Below, piece after piece: positions 16,327-42,638 of a stretch of 64,000 nucleotides of DNA; within the stretch, counting starts at the first letter, position 1, and each line of letters starts with the position of its first letter. The position numbers were made by a program, and so were the translations under genes. The DNA lies in NCBI RefSeq assembly GCF_018618415.1, contig NZ_JACSMA010000001.1:1054001-1118000 (forward strand). The letters run 5' to 3'. The notes beneath the pieces were generated by a model. It was given only the letters and a program-made list of their open reading frames with translations, did not search any database and had not been told where the DNA came from. Source of the stretch: Exiguobacterium sp. s146. GTDB taxonomy: Bacteria > Bacillota > Bacilli > Exiguobacteriales > Exiguobacteriaceae.

Positions 16327-17553
16327 ATGAAACGAACCGAAATCATTGCGGTAGGCTCTGAACTGCTCTTAGGGGAAATCACGAACACGAACGCCCGTTA
16401 CTTATCGGAACAGCTGTCGAAATATGGCCTGTTCGTGCTGTATCATGTAGTCGTCGGAGATAACGAGGAACGGTTGCGAGCGACGCTCGAACAAGCGCGG
16501 GCCCGCAGCGAATTCGTCATCGTCACCGGCGGGCTCGGGCCAACGGCGGACGATATCACGAAAACGACACTCGCCGGCGTGCTCGGCCGCCCACTCGTCC
16601 GTGACGAAGCCTCGCTCGAGACGATTCATCGATTCGTCGCCTCGCGCGGACGAACGATGAATGAAGGCGACGCGCGTCAAGCCGACGTCTTGACCGGGGC
16701 CGAGGTGCTCGACAACCCGGTCGGTCTCGCGCCCGGGATGTGGATTGAAGACGAACCGACCTGGCTGTTATTACCTGGCGTCCCGTGGGAGATGAAAGCG
16801 ATCGTCGACGCCACATTCCCTAAAAAGTTCGGCGGCATGACGATCGTCTCAGAATCGTTGCGCTTTTATGAGATTGGCGAATCGGCGCTCGACGCGGCCG
16901 TCGCCGATTTGATGACCGGCTCCAACCCGACGGTCGCCCCGTACGCCGAGTCGGGCGAGGCACGGCTTCGCATCAGCGCCCGGGCCGATACGGAGACCGT
17001 GGCCCGACAGATGATTGAGCAGGTCAAACAGGAGATTTTGGAGCGGGTCGGTGATTATTATTTCGGTTCGGACGACGATACGCTCGCTGCGCGGTTGATT
17101 CACGAGCTACAAGCGCGCAAGGCGACGCTGTCCATCGCCGAATCGCTCACGGGCGGTCAAGCCCAGGCGATGCTCACAGCCGTGCCTGGGGCGTCCTCCG
17201 TGTTCAAGGGCGGGGTCGTCACGTACTCCGACGAGCTAAAAAATAGGTTTTTAGGGGTGTCCCTTGATACAATTGAGTCACACTCAGTCGTCTCAAAAGA
17301 AGTTGCCTTTGAAATGATCCTCGGTTTGACGCGTCAGACCGGAACGGATTATGGGCTGGCGTTCACCGGCGAGGCCGGCCCGACGTCAAATTCGGGTCAA
17401 CCGGTCGGGAAAGTGTTCATCGGCCTCCGGTCACCGGGCGGGATTGAAGTGATTGAACGTGATTATCCGCATCAAGAGCGGCATGTCATCCAAGCCCGGG
17501 CTACGAAAGACGGAATGTGGGAGCTCCTGCAACAAATGAAAAAAGGCGAATAA
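16327..17553 (+). CDS. cinA: CinA-like competence/damage-inducible protein
   Basis: 408 residues with both usual domains: an N-terminal molybdopterin-binding-like fold (EIIAVGSELLLGEITNTNARYLS, VTGGLGPTADDITK) and a C-terminal PncC-type nicotinamide-nucleotide amidase domain (SIAESLTGGQAQAMLTAVPGASSVFKGGVVTY, AFTGEAGPTSNSGQPVGKVF). Family members deamidate NMN to NaMN and hydrolyse ADP-ribose, recycling pyridine nucleotides. GGGGGAGG precedes the ATG. Its stop lies inside the LexA operator of recA, so the recA promoter is tucked against its 3' end. Confidence 0.92.
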   Translation: MKRTEIIAVGSELLLGEITNTNARYLSEQLSKYGLFVLYHVVVGDNEERLRATLEQARARSEFVIVTGGLGPTADDITKTTLAGVLGRPLVRDEASLETIHRFVASRGRTMNEGDARQADVLTGAEVLDNPVGLAPGMWIEDEPTWLLLPGVPWEMKAIVDATFPKKFGGMTIVSESLRFYEIGESALDAAVADLMTGSNPTVAPYAESGEARLRISARADTETVARQMIEQVKQEILERVGDYYFGSDDDTLAARLIHELQARKATLSIAESLTGGQAQAMLTAVPGASSVFKGGVVTYSDELKNRFLGVSLDTIESHSVVSKEVAFEMILGLTRQTGTDYGLAFTGEAGPTSNSGQPVGKVFIGLRSPGGIEVIERDYPHQERHVIQARATKDGMWELLQQMKKGE

Positions 17554-17560
17554 ACGTTCG
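17547..17560 (+). promoter_or_regulatory. LexA (SOS) box of recA
   Basis: CGAATAAACGTTCG, a near-palindrome that fits the Bacillota SOS consensus CGAAC-N4-GTTCG with one change (T for C at position 5), the same deviation carried by the B. subtilis recA operator. It overlaps the cinA stop codon and lies 8 bases upstream of the -35. Confidence 0.85.
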
Positions 17561-17629: not shown

Positions 17630-18679
17630 ATGAGTGATCGTAAACAAGCGTTAGAAATGGCATTACGCCAAATTGAGAAACAATTCGGTAAAGGCTCAAT
17701 CATGCGCCTCGGTGAAAATACAGATCAGCAAGTTTCGGTGACCCCGTCAGGCTCAATCGCCCTCGACATCGCACTCGGTGCCGGTGGTTATCCACGTGGT
17801 CGTGTCATCGAAGTGTACGGCCCTGAATCGTCAGGTAAAACGACGGTGGCGCTTCACGCCATCGCTGAAGTCCAAAAACGTGGCGGGCAAGCGGCCTTCG
17901 TCGACGCTGAGCACGCGCTCGACCCGAAATACGCACAAAACTTGGGTGTCAACATCGATGAGTTGCTCCTATCACAACCGGATACAGGGGAACAAGCCCT
18001 TGAAATCGCGGAAGCCCTCGTTCGCTCTGGTGCGGTCGATATCCTCGTCGTCGACTCGGTTGCGGCACTCGTCCCGAAAGCCGAGATTGAAGGAGAGATG
18101 GGTGACTCACACGTCGGTCTTCAAGCCCGTCTCATGAGCCAAGCGCTCCGTAAATTGTCTGGTGCGACGAACAAGTCGAAGACGATCGTCATCTTCATCA
18201 ACCAAATCCGTGAGAAAATCGGGATCATGTTCGGTAACCCGGAAACGACACCTGGTGGTCGTGCCCTCAAGTTTTACTCGTCGGTCCGTCTCGAGGTCCG
18301 TCGTGCCGAAACGCTCAAACAAGGCCAAGACATGGTCGGGAACCGGACGAAGATCAAAGTCGTCAAAAACAAGATCGCGCCACCGTTCAAAACGGCGGAA
18401 GTCGATATCATGTACGGCGAAGGCATCTCGCGTGAAGGGGAGCTCATCGACATCGGGGCCGACCTCGATATCGTTCAAAAGAGCGGCGCATGGTACTCGT
18501 ACAATGAAGAGCGTCTCGGTCAAGGCCGTGAGAACGCGAAGCAGTATATGAAAGAGAACCCGTCGGTGGCCGCTTCGGTCGAAGAGCGCATCCGCGACCA
18601 TTACGGTCTCAACGGTGAAAAGACGGTCACAGTCGAAGCTGACGATGATGACGTCCTCTCACTCTTGGACGAAGATTAA
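17630..18679 (+). CDS. recA: Recombinase RecA
   Basis: 349 residues, full length. Walker [10 protein letters not shown] (about 66-74), Walker [11 protein letters not shown], the L1/L2 DNA-binding region with [22 protein letters not shown] and an acidic C-terminal tail ([13 protein letters not shown]). It forms ATP-dependent filaments on single-stranded DNA, drives strand exchange and stimulates LexA self-cleavage. It has its own LexA-controlled promoter and a strong terminator, so it is monocistronic. Confidence 0.98.
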
Positions 18680-37934: not shown

Positions 37935-38375
37935 TTAAAAGGCACGTTTGAAGAACGTGGACGCATAGTCGAGCGTCGTATGTAGCGTCGTCGCGAAGAC
38001 GAGCCCGAAGAAACAGGCCGCCCCGTTCAGGTCGAGCCACGATTTGGCAGCTTCTTCATACGGCGTGAACGTAAGCACGAGCGTGAGCGGGAAACCGAGA
38101 TAGATGACCCGAATGAGATCGCTCAAGAGCGGCAGGTGTGAGAATAACGACCGATGGGGCATGATCTTCACGTAAGGGAGCCAAAAGCCCCGGAGCGGTC
38201 CCCAGCGATAATAGGCGTCCGACTTCAAATCAAGGTCCGGGGAGAGCCAGAACGTCCCAATCAAAGCGCCGAGTAGGAATACGGTCGGGACATCGATGTC
38301 AATAAAAGGCGTGGCAATCGCAAGAGCACCGATTGCCACGAGATTCGTACGGGTATGTGTCTTGCCACTCGCCAT
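37935..38375 (-). CDS. DUF2227 family metal-binding-like membrane protein
   Basis: 146 residues. ASGKTHTRTNLVA at the start, the acidic WLSPDLDL, and PHRSLFSHLPLLSDLIR are the conserved His/Asp motifs of DUF2227 (putative metal-dependent, membrane-associated). Hydrophobic segments near 10-45, 88-105 and 118-135. Its ATG shares the A of the lexA TAA stop (TAATG), so it is translationally coupled to lexA and should be co-expressed with it. Function unknown. Confidence 0.78.
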   Translation of the reverse strand: MASGKTHTRTNLVAIGALAIATPFIDIDVPTVFLLGALIGTFWLSPDLDLKSDAYYRWGPLRGFWLPYVKIMPHRSLFSHLPLLSDLIRVIYLGFPLTLVLTFTPYEEAAKSWLDLNGAACFFGLVFATTLHTTLDYASTFFKRAF

Positions 38376-38995
38376 TAGTGAATCGTCCGGTATACACCGA
38401 TCACCTTCCCTAAAATCGACACGTTATCGAAATACATCGCTTCAAGTTCATCGTTCTCCGGTTGGAGGCGCACTTTCGAAGCTTCTTTATAAATTCGCTT
38501 CACGGTCGCTTCGCCTTCATCTGTCATGGCGACGACAATCTCTCCATTGTCGGCCGTGTTCTGTTGGCGGACGAGGACACGATCCCCATCCAAGATGCCG
38601 GCGTTAATCATCGAGTCTCCCGAAACCGAGAGCATATAGACGTTGTCGGAACCGACGACGTGGGCCGGGAGCGGGAAATGTTCTTCCACGTTCTCGATTG
38701 CCGTGATCGGCGTACCGGCCGTGACTTTCCCGATGACAGGCACGTACATGACGGCATCATGGTCTTCGACGACTGACATCTCTTCATCTAAAATCTCGAT
38801 GGCACGGGGCTTCGTCTTGTCACGTCGAATCAATCCACGCTTCTCCAGACGGTCCAAGTGGCCGTGAACGGTCGAGCTCGAAGCGAGTCCGACTGCCTCA
38901 CCGATTTCACGAACAGAAGGGGGATACCCTTTCGCCCGAACTTCGGTTTTTATAAAATCAAGAATCTGTTGTTGTCTTGCTGACATTTTTTTCAA
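38375..38995 (-). CDS. lexA: SOS repressor LexA
   Basis: 206 residues. N-terminal winged helix ([47 protein letters not shown]), a cleavage site near VTAG (Ala-Gly, about 92), then the S24 peptidase domain with the catalytic Ser in [16 protein letters not shown] and Lys in [15 protein letters not shown]. It represses SOS genes until RecA filaments trigger self-cleavage. The start is TTG 38995: GAGGTG lies 7 bases before it, whereas the next ATG is 15 bases from that site. A perfect LexA box lies upstream. Confidence 0.96.
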
Positions 38996-39081
38996 TGGAT
39001 TTCACCTCGATTATGTCGAATAACCTGCGAACGCATCCTATTCTTTATGGGTTTAGTTTAACACAAGAACACATGAGCGCA

Positions 39082-39095
39082 CAAACATTCGTTCG
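39082..39095 (-). promoter_or_regulatory. LexA box of lexA
   Basis: Minus strand CGAACGAATGTTTG matches CGAACRNRYGTTYG at every position. It overlaps the -35 of a minus-strand promoter candidate (TTGTGC, 18 bases, TAAACT), so LexA should autoregulate. Confidence 0.87.
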
Positions 39096-39106
39096 TTTTT
39101 TTCTGC

Positions 39107-39136
39107 TTGACCGAACAGAAGTTCTTGTTTTATGAT
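39107..39136 (+). promoter_or_regulatory. Promoter of the yneA-like unit with a LexA box in its spacer
   Basis: TTGACC (39107-39112), 18 bases, TATGAT (39131-39136). The LexA box CGAACAGAAGTTCT (39112-39125) fills the spacer. Confidence 0.82.
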
Positions 39137-39149
39137 GAGAACAGATAAA

Positions 39150-39179
39150 CGAACAGACGTTCTCGAGAACGTGTATTCT
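39150..39179 (+). promoter_or_regulatory. Two further LexA boxes in the yneA-like leader
   Basis: CGAACAGACGTTCT (39150-39163, core GAAC-N4-GTTC perfect) and AGAACGTGTATTCT (39166-39179, one mismatch in the core). They lie downstream of the promoter, before the RBS. Confidence 0.8.
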
Positions 39180-39200
39180 TATTCCCAGGAGGTAATCGTT

Positions 39201-39437
39201 ATGAGAGACACAATCAATGGAATCATTTTAGTCGGCATGTTGGCACTTGGAATGTTCGCGTTTTATATGGTCGGGGAGATGCGCCACGACGTCGACGTCG
39301 TCGCGACCGAACCGGTGATTGAACATAGCGTCGAAGAAGAAGTCGCTTTGACGGAGGCTGAGTCACTCGAAGCACAGCTTCTCGCCGAACGGGCTGAGGA
39401 AGAAGACGACAAGACGACGTGGTTCGCCGCCGAATAA
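39201..39437 (+). CDS. SOS-controlled small membrane protein in the yneA position
   Basis: 78 residues. One transmembrane helix (about 7-25, GIILVGMLALGMFAFYMVG) near the N-terminus, then a strongly acidic tail (EEEVALTEAESLEAQLLAERAEEEDD). AGGAGG is 8 bases before ATG 39201. B. subtilis has the cell division inhibitor YneA, with a membrane helix and a LysM domain, in exactly this place divergent from lexA and before yneB. This protein keeps the membrane anchor but has no LysM domain, so by position and control it is a candidate SOS division inhibitor, though homology cannot be claimed from sequence. Three LexA boxes precede it. Confidence 0.75.
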   Translation: MRDTINGIILVGMLALGMFAFYMVGEMRHDVDVVATEPVIEHSVEEEVALTEAESLEAQLLAERAEEEDDKTTWFAAE

Positions 39438-39479
39438 TCTTTTCTGATTGCGAATAGTCCCCGAACCTGTGTATCGTAG

Positions 39480-40154
<675 letters not shown>

Positions 40155-40214: not shown

Positions 40215-40448
40215 ATGCTAGCACCTGAACAGTTGGAGCGAATCAATTTTCTCGCCAACAAAGCGAAGACCGATGGACTGTCATCACAAGAGATGGACGA
40301 GCAGCAAGCGCTGCGCCAACAATATTTGAAAGCGTTCCGCCAATCATTCAAATCACAGATGATGGGGATGAAGGTCGTCGATCCAGACGGAAACGACGTG
40401 ACGCCTGAAAAATTGAAAGACGAGCAGAAACGACATCGCTCAGAGTGA
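40215..40448 (+). CDS. ynzC: DUF896 protein YnzC
   Basis: 77 residues. LERINFLANKAKTDGLSSQEMDEQQALRQQYLKAFRQSFKSQMMGMKVVDPDGNDVTP is the DUF896 (UPF0291) pattern, a small helical hairpin. Last gene of the SOS-induced yneA-yneB-ynzC operon in B. subtilis; function unknown. GAGGGGG is upstream of ATG 40215; a terminator follows immediately. Confidence 0.92.
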   Translation: MLAPEQLERINFLANKAKTDGLSSQEMDEQQALRQQYLKAFRQSFKSQMMGMKVVDPDGNDVTPEKLKDEQKRHRSE

Positions 40449-40613: not shown

Positions 40614-40655
40614 ATGACGGGTAGAAACTTTGTAACAACAGAGAGGATGAAATTA

Positions 40656-42638
40656 GTGGAAACAACTACTAAAGAATTATTAGCGATTAACTCGATTCGG
40701 ACGCTCTCGATTGATGCGGTCCAAAAAGCGAACTCTGGTCACCCGGGGATGCCGATGGGTGCGGCTCCGATGGCGTTCACACTTTGGACGGATAAAATGC
40801 GTCACAACCCGAAAAACCCGAACTGGTTCAACCGCGATCGGTTCGTTCTTTCAGCGGGACACGGTTCGATGCTCTTGTACTCGCTTCTTCACTTATCTGG
40901 TTACGACCTTTCACTCGACGATCTCAAATCGTTCCGTCAAATGGATTCGAAGACGCCTGGACACCCAGAGTACCGTCACACGGCCGGTGTCGACGCGACG
41001 ACTGGACCGCTCGGCCAAGGGATCGCCATGGCAGTCGGTATGGCGATGGCTGAGAAGCATTTGGAAGCAACATACAACCGTGATGAGTTCAAAGTGGTTG
41101 ACCACTTCACGTATGGGATTTGCGGAGACGGTGACTTGATGGAAGGCGTGTCGGCAGAAGCTGCCTCACTCGCTGGTCACTTGAAACTCGGCAAGCTCGT
41201 CGTCCTTTACGATTCAAACGACATCTCACTCGATGGCGACCTTCACAAGTCGTTCTCAGAGAGCGTCGAAGATCGTTTCAACGCTTACGGCTGGCAAGTG
41301 ATTCGCGTCGAAGACGGCACGGATATCGATACGATCGCGAAAGCAATCGATGAAGCGAAAGCGGAAACGTCGAAACCGACCCTCATCGAAGTGAAGACGG
41401 TCATCGGTTTCGGTTCACCGAACAAGTCAGGGAAATCAGCCTCACACGGCGCGCCGCTCGGCGAAGCTGAGATCGAACTCACGAAACAGTTCTATAAGTG
41501 GGAAGGCGAGAACTTCTACGTACCGACCGAAGTGTACGACTTGTTCAACGAGAAAGTCGTTGAGCCAGGCGCCAAAGCGGAAGCGGACTGGAACGAACTC
41601 GTCGCGGCTTACAAATCGACACACCCTGAACTCGGTGCCCAATTCGAGCGTGCAATGAACAACGAGCTTCCAGAAGGCTGGGACAGCGAATTGCCGACGT
41701 TCGAAGTCGGTTCGAAGAAAGCGACACGCCAAACGAGCGGTGAAGTGTTGAATGCGATCGCCAAGGCAGTCCCGACACTCTTTGGTGGCTCGGCTGACCT
41801 CGCGGGTTCGAACAACACGATGATTAAAGGTGCTGCGGACTTCGATGAAGATCCAGCAGGGCGTAACATCTGGTTCGGTGTCCGTGAATTCGCGATGGCT
41901 GCTGCCGTCAACGGTATGGCACTCCACGGTGGAGTCCTTCCGTACGGTGCGACATTCTTCGTCTTCTCAGACTACTTGCGTCCAGCGGTTCGACTCGCGG
42001 CCCTCATGGGAATCCCATCGACGTTCGTCTTGACGCACGATTCGATCGCGGTCGGCGAAGATGGCCCGACGCACGAGCCGGTCGAGCACTTGATGAGCTT
42101 CCGTGCGATGCCAAACTTGTCTGTCCTCCGTCCTGCTGACGGGAAAGAGACGATTGCGGCTTGGAAACAAGCAGTCACAACGAAGACGACACCATCGCTT
42201 CTCGTCTTGACGCGTCAAGCGATACCAGAACTCGAAGGCACGTCGATTGAAGACGCGGCCAAAGGTGGTTACGTCGTCGCCGGTAACTCGAGCGAGGCGG
42301 ACGTCCTTCTTCTCGGTACAGGCTCTGAAGTCCACGTCCTCGTTGAAGCGCGCGAAGCACTCGCGGCTGACGGTGTGAACGCGGCTGTCGTCTCGATGCC
42401 TTCGTGGGAATTGTTCGAAGCGCAATCGGCAGAATACAAAGAGTCGGTGCTTCCATCGTCCATCACGAAGCGCGTCTCGCTTGAAGCGGGCGCGACACTC
42501 GGCTGGTACAAATACGTCGGATTCGGCGGTAAAGTACTCGGCATCGACAAGTTCGGCGCCTCTGCCCCTGGGGATCTCCTCATGAAAGAATATGGCATGT
42601 CGGTCGACAACGTCGTCGCTGCCGTCAAATCACTTTAA
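40656..42638 (+). CDS. tkt: Transketolase
   Basis: 660 residues. Thiamine-diphosphate enzyme of the pentose phosphate pathway moving two-carbon units between sugar phosphates. N-terminal [15 protein letters not shown] and [14 protein letters not shown]; ThDP/Mg site in [22 protein letters not shown]; Pyr domain with [21 protein letters not shown]-terminal domain with [11 protein letters not shown]. Start choice: GTG 40656 has GAGAGG 9 bases upstream and gives an N-terminus like other Bacillota transketolases; ATG 40647 would abut the RBS. Confidence 0.96.

Follow-up and report, generated by a model that had tools for sequence, protein, structure and literature searches.

The arrest of the septal peptidoglycan (PG) synthase by small membrane proteins raises a question of mechanism on which the lexA-divergent region of Exiguobacterium bears directly. 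The 2026 model of Bacillus subtilis YneA holds that PG binding by the LysM domain is essential and that residue D46 is needed (PMC13396833). The gene found in the corresponding slot of Exiguobacterium encodes a protein of 78 residues devoid of LysM, here called P0001, and it can be asked what this protein does, how it is controlled and from where it derives.

Within the window, i.e., the whole stretch of 64,000 nucleotides that was analysed, the gene order at the locus is lexA, slot gene, yneB, ynzC and tkt (Table 1). The P0001 gene is divergent from lexA and lies upstream of yneB, which is the YneA position, as the initial annotation had proposed. The order lexA-yneA-yneB-ynzC-tkt of B. subtilis is the same as at the Exiguobacterium locus. 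The yneB homologue of E. chiriqhucha strain RW-2 is 99% identical to the yneB of the window, which places the window near this species.

Table 1. Coordinates of the features discussed in the text (positions in the window, except for the last row, which gives positions within each locus).
Feature	Coordinates	Strand	Basis or remark
LexA-type site CGAATAAACGTTCG upstream of recA	17547..17560	.	recA match at 17636-18598 in the same window
lexA, divergent repressor gene	38375..38995	-	TIGR00498, 254 bits (cut-off 111); Peptidase_S24 and LexA_DNA_bind
LexA site 1 CAAACATTCGTTCG (lexA side)	39082..39095	.	core with 1 mismatch; invariant in the 19-genome alignment
Predicted slot-gene promoter TTGACC-N18-TATGAT, spacer filled by LexA site 2	39107..39136	+	10/12 consensus matches
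LexA site 2 CGAACAGAAGTTCT	39112..39125	.	exact core; conserved 19/19
LexA site 3 CGAACAGACGTTCT	39150..39163	.	exact core; conserved 19/19
LexA site 4 AGAACGTGTATTCT, 16 bp downstream of site 3	39166..39179	.	core with 1 mismatch
Ribosome binding site AGGAGGT	39187..39193	+	read from the sequence
78-aa slot protein P0001, proposed SOS-induced division inhibitor	39201..39437	+	ORF; 19/19 genomes of the genus
Membrane helix, residues 2-29	39204..39287	+	AlphaFold2 helix; alignment
Predicted acidic extracellular helix, residues 44-77	39330..39431	+	AlphaFold2, low confidence
Conserved C-terminal tail W-[FY]-A-[AS]-E, candidate CtpA degron	39420..39434	+	alignment; degron role inferred
yneB, resolvase-like	39510..40154	+	NF049883, 323 bits (cut-off 175)
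ynzC-type DUF896 gene	40215..40448	+	PF05979, 104 bits (cut-off 24)
Transketolase gene tkt	40614..42638	+	TIGR00232, 982 bits (cut-off 682); longest frame taken, start approximate
Bare-helix peptide loci	L047:2893-2982, L076:2874-2966, L079:2883-2972, L082:2890-2982, L083:2859-2951		

A 101-aa version of the protein, starting at the ATG at 39132, was rejected, since this codon falls within the predicted -10 element, and the 78-aa start is therefore preferred. The protein so defined begins with MRDTINGIILVGMLALGMFAFYMVGEM and ends in WFAAE, and a hand count from residue 29 onwards gives 17 D/E and 2 K/R in 50 residues; hence, the description of a 78-residue product with a membrane helix and an acidic tail, encoded behind three LexA sites, holds for the frame at 39201-39437. 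The lack of LysM noted at the same time is equally borne out, as Pfam detects no LysM in P0001 and the LysM motif is found in none of the 14 slot proteins of the genus. At E <=1, P0001 matches no Pfam or NCBIfam family, including the YneA model NF010723, except for a meaningless match to Pfam Meg (E 0.13, 13 bits vs. a cut-off of 27), which was discarded. Residues D3, T4, N6 and G7 are invariant in the alignment and residue 2 is always K or R, while W74, A76 and E78 are invariant at the opposite end in 19/19 Exiguobacterium genomes. AlphaFold2, run on 15 sequences, gave pLDDT values of 67-87 for the helix block 2-29 and about 53-61 for the helix 44-77, with a pTM of 0.29, and therefore only the first of these helices is usable. 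Judging from its hydrophobicity, this single N-terminal helix would insert in the membrane, and the acidic tail argues for a C-terminus that would lie outside it.

The slot gene is present and uninterrupted in the 19 Exiguobacterium genomes, with 27 of 79 alignment columns invariant, and it is under purifying selection. Its median dN/dS is 0.12 over the whole gene (28 usable pairs of 105, from 15 sequences), and the values by part are 0.11 for residues 1-28 (48/105 pairs), 0.41 for the linker (31/105) and 0.10 for the tail helix (29/105), all of them derived from only part of the 105 pairs, as silent sites have reached saturation in most. Compared with yneB (dN/dS 0.022, 24 pairs), the slot gene evolves faster, yet it is constrained. 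A loose linker between two constrained modules is the pattern that a membrane anchor carrying an effector helix would show, and the AlphaFold2 prediction agrees with this two-module picture in outline, its first helix alone being of fair confidence. It is very improbable, then, that P0001 is a decaying remnant without function: the erosion of LysM in a sister genus and three other Bacillaceae loci with no slot gene, both described below, would suit such decay, but the uninterrupted frames, the dN/dS of 0.10-0.11 in both structured blocks and a promoter region that keeps four conserved LexA sites all speak against it.

When a LexA site is defined as the core GAACN4GTTC with at most one mismatch, the lexA-divergent region contains four LexA-type sites (at 39083, 39113, 39151 and 39167), all of them inside 96 bp (39083-39178), in keeping with the four sites in under 100 bp recognized by the initial annotation. 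None of the four cores varies among the 19 Exiguobacterium genomes aligned; the form GAACN4ATTC of site 4 is present in 19/19 and, by eye, also in 11 upstream regions of the sister genus. Four non-overlapping sites in 110 bp were obtained in none of 200 dinucleotide shuffles of the window, and three sites in 10 of 200, while 5000 shuffles confined to the 205-bp intergenic region never gave three or more sites. The LexA-type sites near the slot promoter are thus beyond chance as well as conserved. In contrast, a looser LexA 14-mer with at most two mismatches is not enriched in the window as a whole (82 found vs. 76.7 expected), and therefore the signal is the cluster and not the number of sites. 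A loose LexA pattern applied to the whole genome, with 335 forward places at one mismatch vs. 102 for a control pattern, proved too noisy to delimit a regulon.

The predicted promoter TTGACC-N18-TATGAT is the sole promoter-like match in 38900-39600, although by itself it is no better than chance (1 found vs. 0.7 expected in shuffles) and its -35 match is missing in one genome of the 19-genome alignment (L100). The region also contains a terminator-like hairpin, ACGTTCTCGAGAACGT, at 39157-39172, which the slot mRNA could also form in its 5' leader; its interpretation as a terminator was discarded, since it merely consists of the back-to-back halves of LexA sites 3 and 4. At the same threshold, four sites, two of them exact, precede the slot gene in 14/14 Exiguobacterium cases and in the 8/8 sister-genus regions counted (of 11 proteins read), whereas the upstream regions of Bacillaceae yneA hold three sites in 56/57 cases and five in one, with no exact site in 55/57, and those of SosA-type genes hold three sites, one exact, in 10/10. 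To call the control of this locus stronger-looking is thus justified as a count of sites.

P0001 is probably the SOS-induced division inhibitor of Exiguobacterium, and its comparison with known proteins suggests that it would work like SosA and not like the LysM-dependent YneA. Staphylococcal SosA is a protein of 77 aa without LysM, encoded divergently from lexA; its extracellular C-terminus is essential, the substitution D44A kills its activity, its level is limited by its last 10 residues together with CtpA, and it stops division once FtsZ and EzrA are in place (PMC6851548). Since such a LysM-less membrane inhibitor is known in the same slot, the missing LysM of P0001 is no surprise by itself. 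Both proteins share the lexA-divergent slot, a length of about 77 aa, one N-terminal membrane helix and a short, partly hydrophobic C-terminal end. Moreover, SosA is turned over by CtpA (PMC6851548), and the Exiguobacterium genome carries one gene for a Peptidase_S41 (CtpA-type) protease. The tail W-[FY]-A-[AS]-E of the genus resembles the WVAAA tail that makes a protein a substrate of E. coli Tsp, as quoted in PMC5758756, but its last residue is charged. However, SosA and P0001 show no significant sequence similarity, and the membrane-proximal motif EQTYEMTDH of SosA is missing in P0001, as it is throughout the alignment of Exiguobacterium slot proteins. The tails also differ in mean net charge (-9.1 in 14 Exiguobacterium proteins vs. 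-3.6 in 10 SosA-type proteins), and the LexA sites number four vs. three. The SosA-type proteins came from 10 genomes of a single family (f10), which was taken as Staphylococcaceae because seven of the ten carry EQTYEMTDH.

YneA of B. subtilis and other Bacillaceae has in common with P0001 the slot, the neighbouring genes, the LexA sites and the single membrane helix, whereas P0001 is without LysM, measures 78 aa instead of about 103 and gives no NF010723 or profile match. More distant parallels can be drawn by description. DivS of Corynebacterium glutamicum is a LysM-less, single-helix inhibitor of division in the SOS response encoded near lexA, although an actinobacterial one (PMC6851548), while ChiZ, which has LysM, and SidA of Caulobacter are small membrane inhibitors of division upon DNA damage, but belong to other phyla (PMC13396833, PMC6851548). 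LysM-less inhibitors in the lexA slot being already known from SosA, P0001 most likely adds a further variant.

It is unlikely that P0001, while SOS-induced, serves some end other than inhibiting division, e.g., by modulating YneB, or the envelope of damaged cells. Such a role would be in line with a locus shared with yneB and ynzC, and with the lack of the PG-binding module that is required in B. subtilis. Nevertheless, the tested lexA-linked slot proteins of Gram-positive bacteria named in PMC6851548 are division inhibitors, including the LysM-less SosA and DivS, and the matches listed in the Exiguobacterium genome offer no other YneA candidate. In fact, the only frames of this genome with LysM above the search threshold are three long ones (270, 365 and 582 aa), and the NF010723 matches listed for the genus are longer frames only, the smallest of 199 aa and none above 39.7 bits; hence, the profile search proposed at the outset as a possible refutation, for a LysM or a clear YneA homology elsewhere in the genome, gave only long frames among the matches listed and does not refute the proposal. 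For the preferred reading, P0001 as an inhibitor, count the gene order like that of B. subtilis, the non-chance cluster of four sites, the two conserved blocks, the presence in 19/19 genomes and the precedent of SosA; against it count the lack of significant similarity to YneA-type or SosA proteins, the unconserved equivalents of FtsW V204/P206, the chance-level promoter match and the charged end of the tail.

The gene, its sites, their conservation, the absence of LysM and the single CtpA-type protease gene are supported by the sequence, and from them we infer LexA binding, induction, topology, division arrest, the FtsW target and CtpA turnover, as follows. LexA would occupy the four sites, one between the -35 and -10 elements and two downstream of the slot promoter, keeping the gene silent. 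Upon DNA damage, LexA would be cleaved and the 78-aa protein would enter the membrane through its N-terminal helix, leaving the acidic tail outside. The membrane helix may then dock on the septal synthase FtsW-PBP2B-FtsL-DivIC, while the acidic helix, in place of a PG-bound LysM, would hinder the outer face of the synthase, so that septation stops. Finally, the W-[FY]-A-[AS]-E end could be the handle by which CtpA removes the protein after repair.

The proposed docking follows what has been described for YneA, which binds TM7 of FtsW through its membrane helix and is blocked by a change of V204 or P206 of B. subtilis FtsW; AlphaFold 3 also places SosA on FtsW TM7, with low confidence (PMC13396833). 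Although P0001 has a build that would suit such docking, neither V204 nor P206 has a conserved equivalent in the two Exiguobacterium FtsW sequences aligned, where this stretch is gapped, and an argument from co-variation with FtsW was abandoned on these grounds. The membrane helix of P0001 is not expected to suffice alone, because a B. subtilis YneA reduced to its own membrane helix has no activity, and neither has the D46A variant (PMC13396833).

Regarding origin, comparison of profiles or sequences did not establish homology of P0001 to YneA, SosA or the slot protein of the sister genus. The profile of the P0001 genus reached a probability of 0.8% (E 0.069) against that of the sister genus, 0.7% against YneA and 0.3% against SosA. 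In column-shuffled Smith-Waterman comparisons, which used few sequences of each set, the tail was equalled by shuffles in 19/300 cases for the sister genus, 195/300 for YneA and 17/300 for SosA, and the helix in 57/300, 44/300 and 81/300, respectively, while the positive control of sister genus and YneA gave 0/300 for the tail and 6/300 for the helix. SosA-type proteins and YneA, for their part, matched at 32.7% over 17 membrane-helix columns only. Among 398 Bacilli genomes, the P0001 profile matched 48 at E <=0.1, of which 19 were those of Exiguobacterium; the other 29 matches were weak, and the best of them was partial (20.5 bits, E 0.0013). None of the 19 sister-genus genomes was matched, no intermediate forms were present among the 19 Exiguobacterium genomes, and no relative of P0001 was found in viral contigs, a mobile origin being discarded on this basis.

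The sister genus (g2), belonging to the same family, has a slot protein of 95 aa that is still matched by the YneA model. NF010723 finds it beside lexA in 19/19 genomes, at 54.9-60.6 bits and above the cut-off of 60 in 15 of them, and 11 of these proteins, taken as an alignment, match the profile of Bacillaceae YneA with a probability of 98.2% (E 3e-14, 90 columns). Pfam LysM, however, is not reported for these slot proteins at E <=1, and both PG-contact loops are gone from all 11 proteins read: the equivalent of GDTLW is NATVE, DATVE, NVTVE or STTIE, and that of the PGD loop is SKN, SKD, SKS or ETD. In the alignment, the position of D46 is occupied by A (8), V (2) or T (1), while T47 is kept; in B. 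subtilis YneA, D46A and T47A are reported to abolish toxicity and to reduce PG binding (PMC13396833). Like P0001, the sister-genus protein sits in the same slot behind four LexA sites, but its tail is unlike that of P0001.

That P0001 descends from YneA, with a LysM that decayed and later gave way to a helix inside this family, the sister genus being an intermediate, has about an even chance of being right. The match to the YneA model beside lexA, the loss of both loops and the same four LexA sites in the sister genus point in this direction, and so do the N-termini, alike by eye (M-[RK]-D-T-[ILV] vs. M-[MI]-H-[TS]-I in 10/11 sister proteins). Against it stand the insignificant profile and shuffle comparisons of Exiguobacterium with the sister genus, the lack of an intermediate in the 19 Exiguobacterium genomes and the failure of the P0001 profile in the sister genus. 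Descent from YneA is compatible with a SosA-like inhibitor and rivals gene replacement, a more doubtful account in which an unrelated membrane gene came to occupy the slot, and to use its promoter, once the ancestral yneA had been lost by deletion. Replacement would agree with the absence of detectable homology to YneA or SosA and with the occurrence across the Bacilli of other slot proteins whose tails differ; however, the 398 Bacilli genomes yielded no donor, the matches outside the genus being weak, nor did the viral contigs yield a relative. As to the initial suggestion of an unrelated or reduced inhibitor, the eroded YneA of the sister genus favours a reduced protein, whereas P0001 shows no significant similarity to YneA, to its eroded form or to SosA.

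Elsewhere in the Bacilli, slot proteins are small and single-helix, either with LysM or SosA-type without it, a common build that is partly by construction because they were picked with hydropathy or LysM-motif filters. Slot proteins with LysM of the GD[TS] type occur in 7/7 f3 loci, in the one f9 locus examined and in 12 of 20 further regions from six families, among which f37 repeats a named locus (L249 is the same protein as L050); these 12 of 20 regions gave a slot candidate under a filter for start, RBS and hydropathy, which returned none in 12 f17 loci. In 57 of 66 named Bacillaceae loci, YneA was picked by LysM-motif pattern and length, so that the presence of the motif in 57/57 is by construction; 55 of these 57 entered the YneA alignment A6 (L065 and L084 left out). 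The nine other loci comprise one disrupted frame, three without a visible slot gene and five with a bare helix. The disrupted frame is that of a B. mojavensis assembly (L026, about 2660-2980), where yneA is split over two frames by a sequencing error or a real loss. In the Gottfriedia and Ectobacillus loci (L066, L071, L072), lexA and yneB are present with no slot gene seen between them, so that these genomes either lack the inhibitor or encode it at another place. The record named Chryseobacterium sp. ISL-80 (L033) contains a Bacillaceae-type YneA and yneB, and is probably mislabelled or contaminated. Since LysM slot proteins recur across other families of Bacilli, an intact LysM looks like the ancestral state, from which it was lost locally. 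The family of Exiguobacterium appears to have abandoned PG binding, and the slot of Exiguobacterium itself is without LysM.

Among halophilic Bacillaceae, a membrane helix of about 30 aa, e.g., MFNKLSKLDVTYILLFAASLAFLYYSMVTSV, can be all that the yneA slot encodes. This arrangement was seen in six f41 genomes (L254-L258, L264) and in five named loci, those of Ornithinibacillus, Oceanobacillus, Paraliobacillus and two Halobacillus. K-x-D precedes the helix in 10/11 cases, three or four LexA sites lie upstream and yneB is next. A bare-helix profile matched 11 of the 398 genomes at E <=0.01, namely the six f41 genomes and five weak matches, two of which were inspected and neither found beside lexA. 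The Halobacillus copy pair differs by 4/3/18 changes at the codon positions (13 silent, 6 replacement codons), and Ornithinibacillus vs. Oceanobacillus by 7/6/17 (8 silent, 13 replacement codons), a pattern that, as expected, would fit a translated gene. One genome (G373, locus L265) has a second bare-helix copy; no signature resembling lexA or yneB was found around it, and the 200 bp before it contain no LexA core. The bare helix is possibly a minimal SOS membrane peptide. These peptides are a puzzle, because the bare YneA helix binds FtsW in B. subtilis without blocking division (PMC13396833). The open-access literature searched contains no description of either the Exiguobacterium slot gene or the bare-helix peptides, although one may exist elsewhere.

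The slot proteins can be arranged in steps, from a full LysM in most Bacilli read, through the loopless LysM of the sister genus and the acidic helix of Exiguobacterium, to the bare helix of about 30 aa. It is conceivable, if tentative, that the slot represents a series shedding its PG-binding domain, in which the core function would be a membrane helix on the septal synthase and PG binding would be optional, lost or replaced several times. The sister orthologue is without D46 and the loops, and the Exiguobacterium protein without LysM, both preceded by more LexA sites than the Bacillus gene. Should these slot proteins still block division, PG binding could not be how such inhibitors work in general; should they fail to, these bacteria must have some other means of delaying division when their DNA is damaged. 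The bare-helix peptides pose the same question at its minimum, and this series, in which nature has removed LysM, allows the PG-binding model of YneA to be put to the test.
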